From contig JAFPWU010000007.1 of NCBI GenBank assembly GCA_017412715.1, positions 1-51,290 on the forward strand: a stretch of 51,290 nucleotides of DNA. Reading direction: 5' to 3'. Below the pieces are notes generated by a model. The model had not been told where the DNA came from and did no database searches. It saw only the letters and a list, made by a program, of their open reading frames with translations. Position 1 is the first letter of the stretch. The number at the start of each line of letters is the position of its first letter. Shown piece after piece: positions 7,629 to 39,322 of this stretch. A program made the translations under genes and the position numbers. This DNA comes from Clostridia bacterium (lineage in GTDB: Bacteria; Bacillota; Clostridia; Christensenellales; Aristaeellaceae).

Positions 7629-10168
7629 GACTTTTCCTCCTTGATTCTTCGAATCTCTTTGATCACAAGCTTCAGATCCACCGGTTTCGCGATATGTCCG
7701 TTCATGCCCGCCTGCAGGCATTCCGCCACATTTTCGGAGAAGGCGTCCGCGGTCATGGCGATGATCGGGATGGAAGCGGCCCATGGGTTCTCCAGGCTGC
7801 GGATCTGCCGCGTGGCGTCCAGGCCGTTCATTTCCGGCATCTGGATATCCATAAAGATCAGGTCGTAGCGGCCTTCCGGGGCCTCCGCCATTTTTTCCGT
7901 GCAGATCCGTCCGTTTTCCGCCCGCTCCGACGTGATGCCGAACATGCCCAGCATGGTGGAGATGATCTCCCAGTTGATATCGTTATCCTCCGCGATCAGG
8001 ATATTCATTCCCGCCAGGTCGGAATAGTCGTCCGCCGGCTCCACCGCCTTTACTTCCATTCCGAGCAGCTCATTGATCTTCTCATACAGTCCGGAGCGGA
8101 ACAGCGGTTTGCTGATGAACCCGTTCGCCCCGGCCGCTTTCGCCTCCTCCTCAATATCGGACCAGTCGTAGGCGGAGATCAGCAGGATGGGGAGGGGCGC
8201 GTCGATTTCCTTCCGGATGCGCCTGATCGTCTCGACCCCGTCCTGATCCGGCATCTTCCAGTCCAGGATAATCACGTTGTAATCCTTTCCGGCCTCATGC
8301 CGGCGGCGGATCATGTCCAGCGCCTCCAGCCCGGTGCCCGCCTGCTCCGTATGGATTCCCATGGATTCCAGGGTATCCGCCGCGGTTTCCAGCAGGATCG
8401 GATCATCGTCCGCGATCAGGGCCTCCACCCCCTCGATCCGCATCTCCTCCAGCTGCTTATCGGCCACCGCAAGATCCAGCGTGATGATGAAGGTCGTCCC
8501 TTTTTCAAGTTCGCTCCGGCATTCAATGGTTCCGTCCATCAATTCGACCATCCGCCGGGTAATCGCCAGCCCGAGTCCGGTTCCCTGAATGCTGTTCACC
8601 CGGCTGTCCGTCTGGCGGGAAAAGGGCTGGTACATTTTTTTCAGGAATTCGGGGCTCATGCCGATCCCGGTGTCCTCAACCCGGTAGATCAGCCTGACGC
8701 ACCCTTCCCTGTCGCTCTTTTCCTCCCGCAGGTCCACGGAGACCCGGCCGCCCGGCATGGTGTACTTGATGGCGTTGGAGAGGATATTGATGTAAATCTG
8801 ATTCAGCCGCAGCTGATCCGCGTAAAGGTACTCCTTCTCGATCCGGTTGGTCCGGAAGCTGAAGACAAGGTTTTTCTCCTTGATCATGGGCTGGGACATG
8901 TTCACCAGGTTCTCCACGGTTTCCACAAGGGAAAAGGTCATCGGGCTCAGGCTGATCTTTCCGCTCTCCACCTTGGAAATATCCAGGATGTCATTGATCA
9001 GCGTCAGCAGATGATTGCCGGCCAGGTTGATCTTTCTCAGGTTGTCCCCCACGGCCTCCTGGTCCCCCAGGTTCCTTTCGGCGATGGTGGTCAGGCCGAT
9101 GATCGCGTTCATCGGGGTTCGGATATCGTGGGACATCGTGGAGAGGAAATCGGTCTTTGCCCGGTTGGCCGCTTCGGCCTCCCTGGCCATCACCTGCAGC
9201 TTCTTGTTGACGGACTGCATGTAAAGAAAGTCCGCTGCCAGCAGAAGCAGCAGCCCGAAGGAGATGACCCCGATCAGGATCCAGTTTTGCGTATCCGCGT
9301 TCAGATTGCTGACCAGCGCGGAGCTCAGCAGCACCCAGCCCTTTGTGGCGGTAATCGGGGTATGGGCGACGATGCATTCCCTCCCCTTGGAATCCAGCAT
9401 GGCAAAGGAGTCCGTACCGGACAGGATATCCGAAAAGAGCTGATTCTGCGCCGCGATTCCGGGCTGGTTGTAGGATTTGTAGAACTCGAAGAAGCTGCTG
9501 CTTTTAAAGGACTTTCCCCGGATGACATAGTTGCCGTCCTTGTCGATGATGGAAAAATCCTCCGCCCCGTACTCCGCCTTGGGGAATACCCACTTCTCCT
9601 CCAGATTGGACACGGGCACGATGCGCAGCAGATAGGCCTTCCGCTTTTCCCCGCTTTCCGCGTCCCGCACGGCAATCCGGTTGCAGAAGGCCAGGGACTG
9701 TTCCCCGTTCATGGGATTCGTAAAGGTCCGGGTCACGTTGACGGCCTCGCCGGTCTCCGCGATCCACGCCCCGTCCCCGAGCAGGTCCATGCGCGCGTAG
9801 GAAACCTCATAATCCTCCTCGCTGTTCAGCCTCGGCCGCGTCGAATAGCCCTCCAGGGTTTCCGCGTCGATCAGATGGGCGGAGGCGACCGTATTTACAT
9901 GGGTGACCCGGACATAGGCCGCCGCTTCCTCCAGCGTCATCTCCTGGCTGTTAATATACTTCGTCCAGTTGTCACAGATTCCCTGTTCCCCTTCCAGGTA
10001 ATTTCCCGTCACCCGCTCCAGGGCCACCGACGCGTTGACGAAATGTTCCACCTGAGCGCTGTAGTGGTCTTTTCGCTCAAAACTGGAATAAAAAGCAACG
10101 AAAACCAGAATAGCGCCCATCAGGGCGATGTTTGCAAGGACGATCCACGATGTCTTCAGACGGCTCAT
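7625..10168 (-). CDS. Membrane hybrid histidine kinase with two receiver domains
   Basis: This is an 847-residue sensor kinase. A membrane segment at 7-28 and another at 297-316 enclose an extracytoplasmic Cache-like domain (about 29-296). A HisKA domain carries the phospho-accepting His347 ([10 protein letters not shown]). The ATPase domain has the N-box near 465, DTGIGM near 499 and GTGLGLAI near 529. Receiver 1 (about 582-700) has the acidic pocket ADDD and phospho-Asp636, and receiver 2 (about 721-840) has AEDN and phospho-Asp774. There is no HPt or DNA-binding output, so the phosphate must go to a partner elsewhere. The downstream binding-protein gene is translationally coupled. It is divergent from the ABC exporter. 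Confidence 0.93.
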
Positions 10169-10443: not shown

Positions 10444-12321
10444 ATGACGCATGGCCGCGGACCGGGAGGATATGGCAGCCGCTTCTACCTGTCAGAGGAG
10501 GAAAAAGCGAATAAACCGCGGGTAACGCCGGAGCTGCTCAGGCGCATTTTTTCCTATTTCAAACCCTATTCCGTCAGGCTGGCCCTGCTTCTGCTGACCA
10601 TTGGGGCCACCTCTTTTCTGACGCTGTTTCCCTCCATCCTCACAGGCAAAATCATCGACGAAGGCCTCATGGAGCACAATCTCCAGGCCCTGATCAAATA
10701 TATCCTCCTGTCCCTCGGGGTGATGCTGGCCTCCAATCTGACCGGCGTGGCCCAGAGCTATATCAACACCTGGATCGCCCAGCATATCACCTATGATATG
10801 CGCAACCAGATGTACGCCCACCTGCAGAAAATGTCCCAGCGCTTCTTTACCTCCAACCATCAGGGGGATATCATCACCCGCATGACCAGCGACATCGACG
10901 GCGTGCGGCAGATGGTCAGCACCAACCTGACCTCCATCCTCTCCGATCTGGTGACGGTCATCATCTCCCTGATCGCCATGTTTCAGAAGAACTGGATTCT
11001 GGCCCTGATCGGCATCGTCATCGTGCCGCTGTTCACCATCCCGACCCGCCGCGCGGGCCAGACCCGCTGGAAATACGCCCACGAATCCCAGGCCTGCAAT
11101 GACGAGATCAACAGCATCCTCAACGAAACCCTCTCCGTCAGCGGTCAGCTGCTCAGCAAGCTGTTCTGCAGGGAGAAGTATGAATATGAGCGCTATAAGG
11201 AAACCAACAGCCGGATGATCCGCCTCAATATCCGTGAAGGCATGGCCGGCCGCTGGTTCCGCGTGGTGCTATCCACCTTTACCAGCATCGGCCCGATGCT
11301 GATCTACCTGGTCAGCGGCATGCTGATGATCGTCTACAAGGCGGAGCTGACCATCGGCGACGTTACGGTGCTGGTGGCCCTGCTGGGCAGAATGTACGCG
11401 CCGGTCAACAGCCTGCTGAACACCCACGTGGACTGGATGCGCTCCATGGCCCTGTTCACCCGCATCTTTGAATATTTTGACATTCCCGTCGAGATCGAAA
11501 ACGCGCCCGACGCCCTCACCCCGGCCCGGGCCGAAGGCAATGTGGTCTTTCAGCACGTAGGCTTCGGCTATGAAAAGGACCGTCCCGTGCTGAAGGACGT
11601 GAGCTTTGAATTAAAGGCCGGCCACAGCATTGCCATCGTCGGGCCCTCCGGCTCCGGCAAGAGCACCCTCGTCAATCTGATTCCCCGCCTGTACGACGTG
11701 AACGAGGGCAGCGTCACCTTTGACGGGATCGATGTGCGCAGACTTGACCTCAGCTTCCTCCGGGGCCAGGTGGGCGTCGTCAGCCAGGAAACCTACCTCT
11801 TCAACGGCACGATCCGCCAGAATCTGCTCTACGCCCGGCCCGACGCCACGGAGGAGCAGATGATCACCGCCCTGAAGAAGGCCAATATCTGGGATTATGT
11901 CTGCAAGCAGCCGGAAGGGCTGGACGCCGTCGTCGGCAACCGGGGCCTGAAGCTTTCCGGGGGCGAAAAGCAGCGCCTGTCCATCGCCCGGGTGCTCCTC
12001 AAGGATCCCACGATTTTCATCTTTGACGAAGCGACCTCCGCCCTGGATTCCATTTCGGAGCAGAAAATCCAGGAGGCTATCGATCCCATCATTCAGAGCC
12101 GCACCAGCATCCTCATCGCCCACCGGCTGTCCACCATTCTCGCCGCGGACGAGATCCTCGTTCTCCAGGACGGCCGGATCGCAGAGCGGGGCAGCCATAG
12201 GGAGCTCATCGCCCGCGGCGGCGTATACCGCGAGCTCTATGATACCCAGTTCTCCCGGGCGCTGCTTCCGGAGGGGGAAGCGGACAGCGCCCCCGCCGGC
12301 AGCCAGGCCGCCGCGGACTGA
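10444..12321 (+). CDS. ABC exporter, fused membrane and ATPase domains (MsbA/LmrA type)
   Basis: This 625-residue half-transporter is expected to work as a homodimer in the membrane, exporting lipids, drugs or peptides. Six transmembrane helices fall between residues 38 and 325. The ATPase domain follows, with Walker A GPSGSGKST (about 400), signature LSGGEKQRLSIARVL (about 504), Walker B IFIFDEATSALD (about 523) and switch His in IAHRLST (about 558). AAGGAGG is well placed before the ATG. It is a single gene, whereas Clostridia often carry such exporters as heterodimeric pairs; the decayed copy at 6201-6350 may be what is left of a second copy. The substrate cannot be inferred. Confidence 0.92.
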   Translation: MTHGRGPGGYGSRFYLSEEEKANKPRVTPELLRRIFSYFKPYSVRLALLLLTIGATSFLTLFPSILTGKIIDEGLMEHNLQALIKYILLSLGVMLASNLTGVAQSYINTWIAQHITYDMRNQMYAHLQKMSQRFFTSNHQGDIITRMTSDIDGVRQMVSTNLTSILSDLVTVIISLIAMFQKNWILALIGIVIVPLFTIPTRRAGQTRWKYAHESQACNDEINSILNETLSVSGQLLSKLFCREKYEYERYKETNSRMIRLNIREGMAGRWFRVVLSTFTSIGPMLIYLVSGMLMIVYKAELTIGDVTVLVALLGRMYAPVNSLLNTHVDWMRSMALFTRIFEYFDIPVEIENAPDALTPARAEGNVVFQHVGFGYEKDRPVLKDVSFELKAGHSIAIVGPSGSGKSTLVNLIPRLYDVNEGSVTFDGIDVRRLDLSFLRGQVGVVSQETYLFNGTIRQNLLYARPDATEEQMITALKKANIWDYVCKQPEGLDAVVGNRGLKLSGGEKQRLSIARVLLKDPTIFIFDEATSALDSISEQKIQEAIDPIIQSRTSILIAHRLSTILAADEILVLQDGRIAERGSHRELIARGGVYRELYDTQFSRALLPEGEADSAPAGSQAAAD

Positions 12322-35976: not shown

Positions 35977-36123
35977 CCGGGGGAGGGCCGGGGCTGAAAT
36001 CCGCCCCCGGGCGGGCCTCCCATCCCCCGCCGGAGGGAGAGTCTCTTCAGCCAAAGCCGCCTTCCTGATCGTTCCCCGGCCCGGCGCCGGGTGCCGAAAG
36101 ACATCCAGAAACGAGGGCAATTC

Positions 36124-37485
36124 ATGCGCATTTTTCAGATATTCCGCAGGGGATTTCCGCTGGCAGGGCTGCTGCTCCTGCTGATGCTGCCCCTGTTCGC
36201 CCTGGGGGAAGCCATCTCCCCCCTGCATCAGGTGACCAATACCCCCACGGATACCGCCAATGACAATAAATCCGTCGTCCGGACCTGGCTGGTGGAAACG
36301 GCGAACGCCGACGTCACCCAGGAGGTCAACGGCATCGTCCGGGCCTACGCGGACCGGCTGGGGCCGGATCTGCCCGCCCAGAAGAACGCCACCGTGGGCA
36401 ACAGCCGCCTGGACGTAACGGTCCGCTACAGCCGGACCGGGCATACCTGGCTCAGCTTCCTCGTCTCCGCCCGGACCCAGTACCGCCAGCAGGTCACCGC
36501 CCAGGAGATTACCTCCCGCACCTATAATATGAGCACCGGGGCGCGGATCATGCTGACGGACATCTTCGACGAGGACCCCGCCACCTGGGAGTATCTGGCG
36601 GAGCGGGTGCGGGACGGCCTGACCGCCTACTGGCCGGATATCGAGCCGGATCCGGAGGCCCTGGAGGCCCTGTGTGGCCGGGAGGCCCTGAGTCAGGCGG
36701 ATTTCACCCTGCACGGCATGAGCCTGGTGCTGCATTATCCGGCGGATCTGCTGTACGAGGGGAAGCATACCCTGATGAATATTACCCTTTTCTATCCCCA
36801 GATCCGGGACATGATGGCGGAGGAGGCCTGGCTGGAGACGGACAATCTGAGCTATTACCATACCTGCGCCCTCACCTTTGACGACGGCCCCAGTGTCCTC
36901 AATACCCCCAAGCTGCTGCGGGTCCTGATGGAAACCGGCGGTGTCGGCACCTTCTTCGTCATCGGGAACCGGGTTCCCGCCTACGAATACCTGGTGCAGC
37001 GGGAGAGCGACGAGGGCCACGCGGTGGCGTCCCATAACTGGCACCACGGCAACGTGGCCAAGTCCTCCAAATCGGCGCTTCGCGCCATGCCGGAGAAGGT
37101 CAATCAGGCCATGATTGCCGCCATCGGCATCCCCGTCCGTTATAACCGGGTGCCCGGCGGCCTCTATCCCCGGATGATCGAGGCGAAGGTGGGCTGGCCC
37201 TGTATCCAGTGGAGCCTGGATACCTACGACTGGCGGGGCCGGAGCACCGCCCAGGTGGTGTACAAGGTCCGCGACGCCATCCAGGACGGGGATATCATCC
37301 TCTGCCACGATATCAAGGACAATACCCCGGAGAGCGCCAGGCAGATCGTCCGGTATCTGGAAGAGCAGGGATACATGCTGCTCACCGTGGACGAGCTCTT
37401 CGCCAAGGACGGGATCACCCTGGAGCCGGACAAGGTCTATTACCGGTGCCAGAACGGGGATACCTCCAAGCGGGAGGATCCCTGA
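36124..37485 (+). CDS. PdaC-like secreted polysaccharide deacetylase
   Basis: This 453-residue protein has a signal peptide or anchor (1-30, ending FALGEA). An RsiV/DUF4163-like domain (about 60-235) is followed by a NodB deacetylase domain (about 247-435). NodB motifs are complete: TFDDGP 251-256 (metal and base Asp), H304 and H308 in SHNWHH, R342-VPGG, SLDTYDW 364-370 and LCH at 393-395. It should remove N-acetyl groups from peptidoglycan or another envelope glycan, making cells lysozyme-resistant. The start at 36124 follows GAGGG; an in-frame GTG at 36091 has no ribosome site. Domain order is that of Bacillus PdaC. Confidence 0.9.
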   Translation: MRIFQIFRRGFPLAGLLLLLMLPLFALGEAISPLHQVTNTPTDTANDNKSVVRTWLVETANADVTQEVNGIVRAYADRLGPDLPAQKNATVGNSRLDVTVRYSRTGHTWLSFLVSARTQYRQQVTAQEITSRTYNMSTGARIMLTDIFDEDPATWEYLAERVRDGLTAYWPDIEPDPEALEALCGREALSQADFTLHGMSLVLHYPADLLYEGKHTLMNITLFYPQIRDMMAEEAWLETDNLSYYHTCALTFDDGPSVLNTPKLLRVLMETGGVGTFFVIGNRVPAYEYLVQRESDEGHAVASHNWHHGNVAKSSKSALRAMPEKVNQAMIAAIGIPVRYNRVPGGLYPRMIEAKVGWPCIQWSLDTYDWRGRSTAQVVYKVRDAIQDGDIILCHDIKDNTPESARQIVRYLEEQGYMLLTVDELFAKDGITLEPDKVYYRCQNGDTSKREDP

Positions 37486-37511
37486 TTGATGAATAAAGGA
37501 ACGCCCTGTAA

Positions 37512-37708
37512 CTATTCAGCTCTGAAAGCGGAGCGCTGAGGTGTTCCACTTCCGGGGGCCTTGATTCTCGCCGGTTCTTAGCGATTGGCAAGCCGCAAGG
37601 CGCAGACAGAGCTTAGAACCGCTGCGTAAGTGAACGGAGCCGAGAGGCGTCCCCCGGAGTGGAACAACCTCAGAGAGCGGAGCGATTGAATAGATAGGCC
37701 TTACGCAG
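37512..37708. ncRNA. Strongly structured intergenic element, candidate RNA with pseudoknot
   Basis: Nested complementary arms can be read directly. CTATTCA (37512) pairs with TGAATAG (37687). 37536-37558 pairs with 37651-37673 in about 21 bp (CTGAGG/CCTCAG, then GTTCCACT/AGTGGAAC and CCGGGGG/CCCCCGG with single bulges). TCTCG (37566) pairs with CGAGA (37641), and GGTTCTTAGC (37573) with GCTTAGAACC (37611) with one mismatch. An apical GCC-GCAA-GGC stem lies at 37592. A side hairpin GCTC/GAGC is at 37519. The junction sequence CTGCGTAAG (37622) is exactly complementary to CTTACGCAG (37700), outside the outer stem, forming a pseudoknot. A terminator follows. The strand is unproven; plus is favoured by the terminator. 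A palindromic MITE is the alternative. Confidence 0.55.
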
Positions 37709-37717
37709 AAGAACCGT

Positions 37718-37761
37718 AAAAAACAGCCCGCCGGGGCATGCAAACCCGGCGGGCTGTTTTT
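37718..37761. terminator. Bidirectional intrinsic terminator
   Basis: ACAGCCCGCCGGG (37723-37735) pairs perfectly with 37745-37757; A6 precedes and T5 follows. It separates the structured element from the convergent GerMN gene. Confidence 0.9.
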
Positions 37762-37768
37762 ATGATAT

Positions 37769-39322
37769 TTATCCGAAACTCTCTTCCCCGAGCCCGGCGT
37801 TTGGATAGAACACCCCGGCCCACCAGATGACGCCGGCGATATATTCCACCTGCTCCCCCTCGAAGAAGAAGCAGACCTGCCGGGCCCCGGTATTCTCGCA
37901 CAGGGTATTCACCATGCTGTAGCAAAGCAGCGTCTCCCGCTCCCGGCCCCAGCTCTGGATCTCGGACCGGAAGCTTTCGCTCAGGTTCAGCAGCAGGGTA
38001 TCCCCCTCCAGGGCGATTCCCAGGATGTCCTCTTCCCCCACCAGGTCCGGCAGGGTGGCCTCCATCCCTTCCGCCATCTCCCGGGCGCCGGGCCCGTCCA
38101 TCAGGGCCGTCAGCTGCTCCCGGGGGCTGTCCGCCTTCTCCCGATCCACGCTCTTCTCCGTCGGCACCAGCAGGCCCTCCCGGGCGAAGTACACCGTGGT
38201 GCGCCCCATCAGGAATCCGGAAAAGTCCTCCCGGTGGAACAGGCCCCCCAGCACCTGCACGGATCCGTATTTCTCGCTGCGCACGCTGGTCAGGGGCCGG
38301 TCGCCGATCCGGACGGCCACCCCCGCGATGCCGGGAATAAAGGTGGTCAGGGTGTAGCAGATCGCCGCCATCAGGCAGGCCTCGTCCACCCCCGCCTCCT
38401 CCCAGGCGCGCTCCGCCTCCTCCCGGAAGGACAGGGTCAGCATCCGCCCTCCGTCCGCCAGCTCACTGGTCAGAGGCTCATAGGCCAGCTGGGACGTCAG
38501 CTCCGGCATGTCCGGCACCCCCGTCAGGAACATGGCCCCGTGGCTCAGGTTCTCCAGGATGGTCAGGGTCATCTGGCCCGGGGTCTGCCCCTCGAAGGTC
38601 AGCGTCCTGTTCTCGCAGGTAATTCCTTCCCCGTTCTCCAGGGGATAATACAGCGTCATGTAGGAGGTCAGGGGCGTTTCCGCCGCGTTCTGCCCGATGG
38701 GCGCCCGCTTCGCCTCCATCTGCTCCCAGAGCACCGGCAGGTTCTCCCCGGGATGGGCCATCAGGCTGCCCATGGCCAGGCTGTTCGCGGTATCCAGGCC
38801 CACGCTGCGCCCCGCCACCAGCACGTTGACACACCGGACCGTGTCCAGCTCGCACAGGGTGGCCGCCAGCGCCAGGCTCAGGGTATACAGGGCCCGGTAG
38901 CTCAGCCCCAGGGCCGAGGACCCCAGGTTCACCGTCACCACGCCCCCGCTCAGCTCCACCGGGCTGTCCCCGTACAGGCTCAGCTCCGTGCCGCCCCCCA
39001 GGGCGTCCACCTGGGCGTTGGAGGGATAGTTCAGCAGCTCCATCACGATGGCCTCCATCTCCTCCGCCCGCAGCAGGCCCGATACGGAAGGCACATGCTG
39101 GGCTACCAGGTTCAGCCCGTTCTTTCCCGGCAGATACAGGGTCCAGAGGCCCTCCTGCACGGAGATGCGGTCCGCGTCCGGCGCCTCCCAGGCAACCTGG
39201 GCCGGGGGCAGGGTGGGCAGGTCTTCCCCTGTCTCCTCCCCGATCCGGGGCGCGCATCCCGTCATCAGCGGAAAGCAAAGGGCCAGCGTCAGCCACAGGC
39301 AGACGATTTTCCGTCCCCTCAT
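37769..39322 (-). CDS. GerMN-domain lipoprotein
   Basis: This 517-residue protein has a lipoprotein signal (MRGRKIVCLWLTLALCFPLMTGC, lipidated Cys at about 23). It has two GerMN-type domains. The first spans about residues 70-180 (VDALGGGTELSLYG, VTVNLGSSALGLS, ALAATLCELDTVRCVNVLVAG). The second spans about 395-500 (LVGEEDILGIALEGDTLLLNLSESF, LLCYSMVNTLCENTGARQVCFFFEG). GerMN domains occur in sporulation proteins and in LpqB of Actinobacteria. The gene overlaps the histidine kinase stop by four bases. Order regulator-kinase-GerMN lipoprotein matches mtrA-mtrB-lpqB, so it may modulate the kinase from outside the membrane. This role is inferred by analogy. Confidence 0.85.
   Translation of the reverse strand: MRGRKIVCLWLTLALCFPLMTGCAPRIGEETGEDLPTLPPAQVAWEAPDADRISVQEGLWTLYLPGKNGLNLVAQHVPSVSGLLRAEEMEAIVMELLNYPSNAQVDALGGGTELSLYGDSPVELSGGVVTVNLGSSALGLSYRALYTLSLALAATLCELDTVRCVNVLVAGRSVGLDTANSLAMGSLMAHPGENLPVLWEQMEAKRAPIGQNAAETPLTSYMTLYYPLENGEGITCENRTLTFEGQTPGQMTLTILENLSHGAMFLTGVPDMPELTSQLAYEPLTSELADGGRMLTLSFREEAERAWEEAGVDEACLMAAICYTLTTFIPGIAGVAVRIGDRPLTSVRSEKYGSVQVLGGLFHREDFSGFLMGRTTVYFAREGLLVPTEKSVDREKADSPREQLTALMDGPGAREMAEGMEATLPDLVGEEDILGIALEGDTLLLNLSESFRSEIQSWGRERETLLCYSMVNTLCENTGARQVCFFFEGEQVEYIAGVIWWAGVFYPNAGLGEESFG

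Follow-up and report, generated by a model that had tools for sequence, protein, structure and literature searches.

A candidate IS66-type MITE with a structured RNA core, dispersed in genomes of gut Clostridia

Small mobile repeats such as ERIC and Correia/NEMIS (about 100-200 bp) are transcribed into RNAs that form long stems, for which an effect on mRNA stability or processing has been proposed (PMC2229807). RAGATH-18, the reRNA of IS607 TnpB, represents another type of structured RNA of mobile elements, and 64% of these RNAs lie next to tnpB (PMC11061315). To judge from the relevant passages of these two papers, MITEs such as ERIC and Correia/NEMIS and the reRNAs of TnpB elements are the nearest described things to the element reported here. 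Like ERIC and Correia/NEMIS, it is a small mobile repeat whose transcript would fold; differently, TA is given at the termini in the table of that review (PMC2229807), whereas 8-bp duplications, a branched core with a GNRA loop and copy-specific arms were found here. Like RAGATH-18 (PMC11061315), it combines a mobile element of gut Firmicutes with a conserved, apparently structured RNA, but no tnpB was present among the 10 neighbours scanned and no Rfam match was obtained. Compared to IS66-family MITEs, the ends, the 8-bp target duplication, the lack of an own transposase, the many copies and the occurrence of full-length IS66 elements that carry these ends in the genus are the same, whereas the interior here would be a conserved junction RNA, one that is found without IS66 ends as well. 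No published description of the element was found in a limited full-text literature search, and it is not claimed to be unpublished.

The window, that is the whole stretch of 51,290 nucleotides analyzed from a Clostridia bacterium (contig JAFPWU010000007.1), carries the element between two genes and without an own transposase gene (Table 1). The initial annotation had placed a structured RNA with nested complementary arms at 37512-37708; the limits were revised to 37508-37697, which adds a little on the left and removes some bases on the right, while the nested arms and the terminator 3' of the feature were both recovered. The RNA fold of 37500-37770, terminator included, reached -129.5 kcal/mol versus a shuffled mean of -90.3 (sd 4.9, 200 shuffles; z -7.97), and the opposite strand also folded well (z -6.18). 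The P1 arm of this copy is 23 nt long, interrupted and 74% complementary. In the minimum-energy fold TCTCG was paired with CGAGA in competition with the P4 hairpin, and the latter was preferred because P4 covaries. A long-range pseudoknot between 37622-37630 and 37700-37708 had also been proposed. The two 9-mers are exact complements, but the pairing was rejected as a meaningful one, since the second 9-mer is unique flank outside the repeat. Among 33 distinct copies in which the junction 9-mer occurs, only the window copy is followed within 130 nt by a complement of 8 bases or more. At least one 9-bp inverted pair also arose in 8% of 2000 simulated sequences that kept the nearest-neighbour composition, and the proposed pairing is most likely due to chance. 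The deacetylase and Germane-domain genes, convergent and close in the window, had a different relative orientation in eight of the nine relatives with both best flanking-gene matches on one contig; the ninth (G026) had the same orientation with about 1.9 kb between the matches. In view of this difference in gene order the window flanks may be rearranged, and no clean empty site for the window copy was found among relatives because the two genes are arranged differently there.

Table 1. Positions in the window of the element, its parts and its neighbours
Feature	Position	Strand	Remarks
Mobile element (putative MITE), 190 bp	37508..37697	+	Own-genome copies align over these limits and stop there; ends are terminal inverted repeats
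Left terminal inverted repeat GTAACTATTCAGCT	37508..37521	+	2 mismatches to consensus set
Right terminal inverted repeat	37684..37697	-	3 mismatches; 8-bp target duplication absent at this copy (2/8 bases match)
Outer arm	37509-37518 with 37687-37696		10 nt, 90%
Long arm P1, 5' strand	37536..37558	+	Inverted-repeat search and fold; pairing kept elsewhere with copy-specific sequence
Long arm P1, 3' strand	37651..37673	+	Inverted-repeat search
Core arm	37572-37582 with 37611-37621
Conserved core	37569..37626	+	P2 CGC/GCG, CT bulge 37622-37623, P3 CGGTTCT/AGAACCG, inner hairpin
P4 hairpin GCC-GAGA-GGC, GNRA tetraloop	37639..37648	+
Junction 9-mer CTGCGTAAG	37622..37630	+	Conserved within close family; no conserved partner
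Claimed pseudoknot partner	37700..37708	+	Unique flank; beside this copy only (1/33)
Intrinsic terminator, outside element	37719..37761 (arms 37719-37735 with 37745-37761)	+	Between 3' ends of two convergent genes
Upstream gene, polysaccharide deacetylase (Polysacc_deac_1)	36091..37485	+
Convergent gene, Germane (sporulation and spore germination) domain protein	37769..39322	-

The element is dispersed in its own genome. By blastn, 33 rows were obtained at E<=10, 14 of them of at least 104 bases including the window copy, and the other 13 long matches were 90-96% identical over the matched part; the covariance model likewise gave 14 copies in this genome (1.77 Mb, 54.7% complete). Within the genus, covariance-model matches were detected in 31 of 45 genomes, with up to 34 per genome. 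In some copies, the P4 hairpin had structured inserts within it or next to it. One type of insert, a GC-rich hairpin of about 50 nt (CCGCGCGCGGTGCGCG type), was located at differing positions, beside P4 or in the P3 loop (L007, L008 and L014 in the own genome; L314, L319 and L321 in G061), and it looks as if it were a second, smaller mobile hairpin nested in the element. Another insert beside P4 (L015, L016, L017, L018, L049, L064, L086) had the hairpin loop CC-AGT-GG and a stem that varied between species yet paired (AAAACTGTCC/GGACAGTTTT, GAGAAAGAGCC/GGCTCTTTCTC). Additionally, G061 matched the query L331:600-19601 at positions 10017-10123 and 10791-10977, outside its element part, and these matches represent further dispersed repeats, about 107 and 180 nt long. 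Contigs C1, C11, C30 and C31 of G061 started or ended inside element copies with equal model scores, and the two that were read were identical; draft assemblies may break in element copies, and copy numbers may be underestimated.

The ends connect these copies with IS66. Many copies ended in GTAACTATTCAGTC-like repeats and their inverse, and others had lost them. In a congener, an IS66-family insertion sequence (L442, 1370-2958) had the same inverted ends on both sides and an 8-bp duplication CTTCTGTT, and encoded a 492-aa protein with a DDE_Tnp_IS66 domain; the same ends, one with a mismatch, flanked L441 on both sides. Matches to the IS66 transposase were obtained in four of six genomes asked, with none in the own genome (54.7% complete) or G061, and no match to the element core was found inside seven IS66 loci. 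The 8-bp target duplication was evaluated in 35 copies with both ends recognised, for which up to 3-4 mismatches were accepted and a few end assignments are doubtful: 12 of the 35 matched at 7-8 of 8 bases (five perfectly), compared to 0.34% of swapped pairs, and lengths of 5-7 and 9-12 gave no comparable excess in the same copies. At one site of the close relatives G061 and G062, the element was present in G062 (L324) and absent in G061 (L321), with small further differences. In L032 (G027), a copy was situated in or beside another copy; the 8 bp duplicated there, GCGGAGCG, correspond to a motif of the repeat itself, and a partial copy of the element lies just upstream. The window copy itself has degenerate ends and no 8-bp duplication (AACGCCCT versus GCCTTACG). 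MITE membership is therefore claimed for the repeat family, that of the window copy resting on its sequence identity and ends; by its family the window feature is a putative IS66-type MITE with this one feature missing. Mobility by IS66 transposase acting in trans appears well supported by sequence in the window's genus. Dispersed near-identical copies with target duplications, which the initial annotation had held to favour a MITE over an RNA, were thus found for the family.

The core is not confined to this genus. Among 297 genomes sampled in the order, the element was detected in five, all of the window's genus; in the class, 15 of 391 sampled genomes (12 of 223 genera; own genome included) were positive, of which eight belonged to family f58 and several of the rest were recognised by a 31-nt inner hairpin alone. 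These two scans scored 11 and 9 candidates per genome, respectively, so that the copy numbers are minimum values. In named genomes, 47 stretches were obtained by a pattern scan; 40 had titles indicating a ruminant gut sample, and one was titled Mogibacterium sp. Ten genomes picked for carrying matches had 3 to 24 each, and eight genomes of the genus of one of them had 0 to 13. The 31-nt inner hairpin (GATTGGCRAGC..GCGMAGACAGAG) also occurred alone, capping hairpins with unrelated arms (L176-L180, L045, L056, L119, L132), and in L176 it was present three times with a spacing of about 61 nt. Plasmid and phage collections gave no blastn match and viral contigs no match in two pattern scans, on which grounds a phage or plasmid origin was rejected. 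A wider RNA family in Clostridia, also without IS66 ends, with 1 to 24 matches per genome and often intergenic, is supported by these sequence matches. The element could be a mobile RNA family in its own right, in which a compact junction RNA with copy-specific arms spreads in Clostridia by its own route, and capture by IS66 ends was only secondary and took place in the window's genus. This explanation is regarded as possible, at clearly less than even odds. Neither a palindrome that was there before nor a copied flank accounted for the arms at the few empty sites examined.

The evidence for an RNA came chiefly from the core. A set of 38 diverse cores (A1) was aligned by sequence with MAFFT, and RNAalifold proposed 20 pairs, 12 of which had two-sided compensatory changes. 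When five lower P2 pairs were added, which were unpaired in 17 to 28 of the 38 rows, 17 of 25 pairs had two-sided changes, versus 4-6 with the partner slid by 1-3 columns. For this 25-pair core model the percentage paired, the two-sided changes and the covariation score each exceeded all 500 shuffles, and the count of further pair types, reached by 112 of 500 shuffles, was not exceptional. In a larger set of 99 rows (A4), 17 of 20 pairs showed two-sided changes, a biased figure as these rows were fitted to the model; the MAFFT alignment of the 38 is the cleaner test. The P4 loop was GNRA in 37 of the 38 rows of A1 (ACGA in the remaining row) and in 93 of the 99 rows of A4 (GAGA, GGGA, GCGA, GAAA, GGAA or GCAA; the other six had inserts or other lengths), and no GNYA loop was seen among the P4 loops of the aligned rows. 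These results supported the core as a predicted structured RNA, drawn as a three-way junction of arm P1, a P2/P3 arm with a CT bulge and the GNRA hairpin P4. None of the stretches and loci scanned gave an Rfam 15 family above its gathering cut-off at the element; at E<=10, three stretches gave weak unrelated matches only, in one of them mostly on the terminator. The core is regarded as a candidate RNA family absent from Rfam 15.

The arms were evaluated with segments picked by Watson-Crick matches alone, and 26 of the 201 elements were skipped because none of their segments scored 7. In the remaining 175, the pooled mismatches comprised 140 G-T/T-G versus 55 A-C/C-A, an excess that favours RNA pairing of the plus strand, although related copies make the count overstate independence; in the f58 subset the two were about equal (24 versus 22). 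Selection was also assessed at sites shared by pairs of genomes. In the comparison of G370 with G519, made at three orthologous sites, 253 of 254 core positions were identical, compared to 1884 of 2095 in the flanks (85-97% for single flanks, one flank itself being 368/378 identical); at one site of G338 and G342, the values were 96/99 and 641/753. No clear difference was determined at three sites of G061 and G062 (core 296/305, flanks 2158/2265). The core evolves far slower than its flanks at some shared sites and not at others. In a simple pairwise alignment of the arms at six shared sites, 2 pairs were compensatory, 4 were one-sided, 23 were broken and 13 had gaps; by themselves the broken pairs speak against ongoing arm pairing. 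Because shifted arms are hard to align, alignment-free cross-pairing was carried out at seven shared sites, and at two of them native arms paired much better than arms from different genomes: site a of G370/G519 (native -25.8 and -27.0, cross -8.9 and -16.7) and the G338/G342 site (native -38.3 and -37.4, cross -31.7 and -24.0). The other five showed no difference between native and cross pairs, and at one a native pair was weaker than both crosses. Only these two orthologous sites thus showed arm compensation. Stretches from ten congeners gave no match to one G370 site, and those from six gave none to a second.

Selection on RNA folding is supported by the changes in the core and less by those in the arms. 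Part of these data would also suit a palindromic DNA transposon, whose fold is a by-product of inverted ends and DNA hairpins with no role as RNA. The IS66 ends, the 8-bp duplications and the lack of a gene-orientation preference (see below) agree with it, as do the small excess of core conservation in G061/G062, the missing G-U over A-C asymmetry in f58 and the predominance of broken over compensated pairs at the six shared sites. Differently, two-sided changes in an internal core outside the ends, P4 loops that vary within GNRA with GNYA unseen, the G-T excess in the pooled arms and the core identity at the G370/G519 sites argue against DNA alone, and this explanation is considered unlikely. 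The structured RNA outside known families that had been proposed at first was supported on these grounds. It had been set against a MITE as an alternative, whereas the evidence fits both together.

The arms differ between copies. In several genomes outside the window's lineage, copies with near-identical cores had wholly different arms. For 201 of 253 matches (those under 91 bases, too near a locus end or repeated were dropped), the median number of arm pairs was 39, versus 15 with swapped 3' flanks; the count is permissive, as 7 of the 201 real arms had fewer than 10 pairs, yet 136 of the 201 swapped controls reached 10. Shared arms occurred in some amplifications, e.g. G695, G718 and a subset of G342, and in G061/G062 copies short arms varied with matching changes on both sides, as read by eye. 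At two G342 sites the element was absent in G338 and G721. The G338 spacers there contained neither a palindrome nor arm sequence, and the G721 spacer at the first site had a short 5-bp hairpin unrelated to the arms. Other sequence was present in G720 at the first site and in G343 at the second, where an inverted repeat with a P4-like AGCGAGAGCGTGCCC (L431) occupied the place of the full element of G342 and may be a remnant or another form of the element. In G344 the element was present at the first site with unrelated arms. It seems that the arms either arrive together with the element or change rapidly once it has inserted, and inverted duplication of the flank as their source was not supported at the empty sites, where spacers had diverged. 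Insertion of the core into the tips of pre-existing palindromes would also yield copy-specific arms. It would explain near-identical cores with wholly different arms within one genome and the 31-nt sub-module on top of unrelated hairpins, but the core-free sites in G338 and G061, with diverged spacers, had no palindrome or arm, and the one in G721, diverged as well, had only its unrelated hairpin. This route is judged improbable.

The gene context was counted with a crude ORF caller on 116 elements, a hand-made distinct list from 154 matches with repeats and some contig-end matches left out. Two clean neighbours were obtained for 70, the other 46 having overlapping ORF calls or a missing neighbour: 26 lay between convergent, 22 and 16 between tandem and 6 between divergent genes. 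These counts suggest that the element is tolerated at 3' ends and argue against a classic riboswitch. Tandem contexts showed no clear strand preference (22 versus 16), which a function in the 3'UTR should give. Ten neighbouring proteins scanned in f58 genomes were ordinary enzymes, regulators and a release factor, and unrelated. A stand-alone regulatory RNA or riboswitch, repeated by chance, would account for the aptamer-like layout and conservation, and one f58 copy does lie between ilvN and ilvC in sense direction; however, there was no consistent position upstream of genes, the scanned neighbours were unrelated and the dispersal involves target duplications. The riboswitch was rejected on context, as a sense position upstream of a consistent gene set was not found, and is very improbable. 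The weakest candidate, hardly credible, is the guide or scaffold RNA of a nuclease-bearing element (the OMEGA, TnpB or HEARO type) whose protein gene was lost and whose arms are former guides: a conserved scaffold with adjacent copy-specific arms of about 20 nt would suit it, but no such Rfam family appeared even at E<=10 in three stretches, no nuclease gene was present among the 10 neighbours scanned, and the arms pair with each other.

The best explanation is that the element is an IS66-type MITE carrying a structured RNA core, to which we assign an overall probability of about 70%. An RNA copy would have been caught between IS66 ends in the window's genus, and the captured copy would then have been amplified by IS66 transposase acting in trans. 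On read-through from a neighbouring gene, the RNA would fold into a compact 3'-end structure, which may be bound by a host factor or dock on itself via the GNRA loop. Such a structure could block exonucleases and separate neighbouring transcripts. Intergenic insertions would be harmless or mildly useful owing to this shielding, which would explain the retention of the core at some sites. Shielding of 3' ends or separation of transcripts by the folded RNA, suggested by the context, is put forward tentatively as the less probable part of the scheme, at clearly less than even odds, and the missing strand preference in tandem contexts counts against it. Overall, we favour a selfish element that is tolerated at 3' ends and whose RNA would shield the transcripts next to it, its function being putative.

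These results join a transposon-mobilised repeat and a structured RNA that appears to be under selection, two things usually annotated apart, in a family that recurs in gut Clostridia genomes. Its copy-specific yet well-pairing arms pose a concrete question of how folded RNA or DNA elements spread and persist beside ordinary genes.
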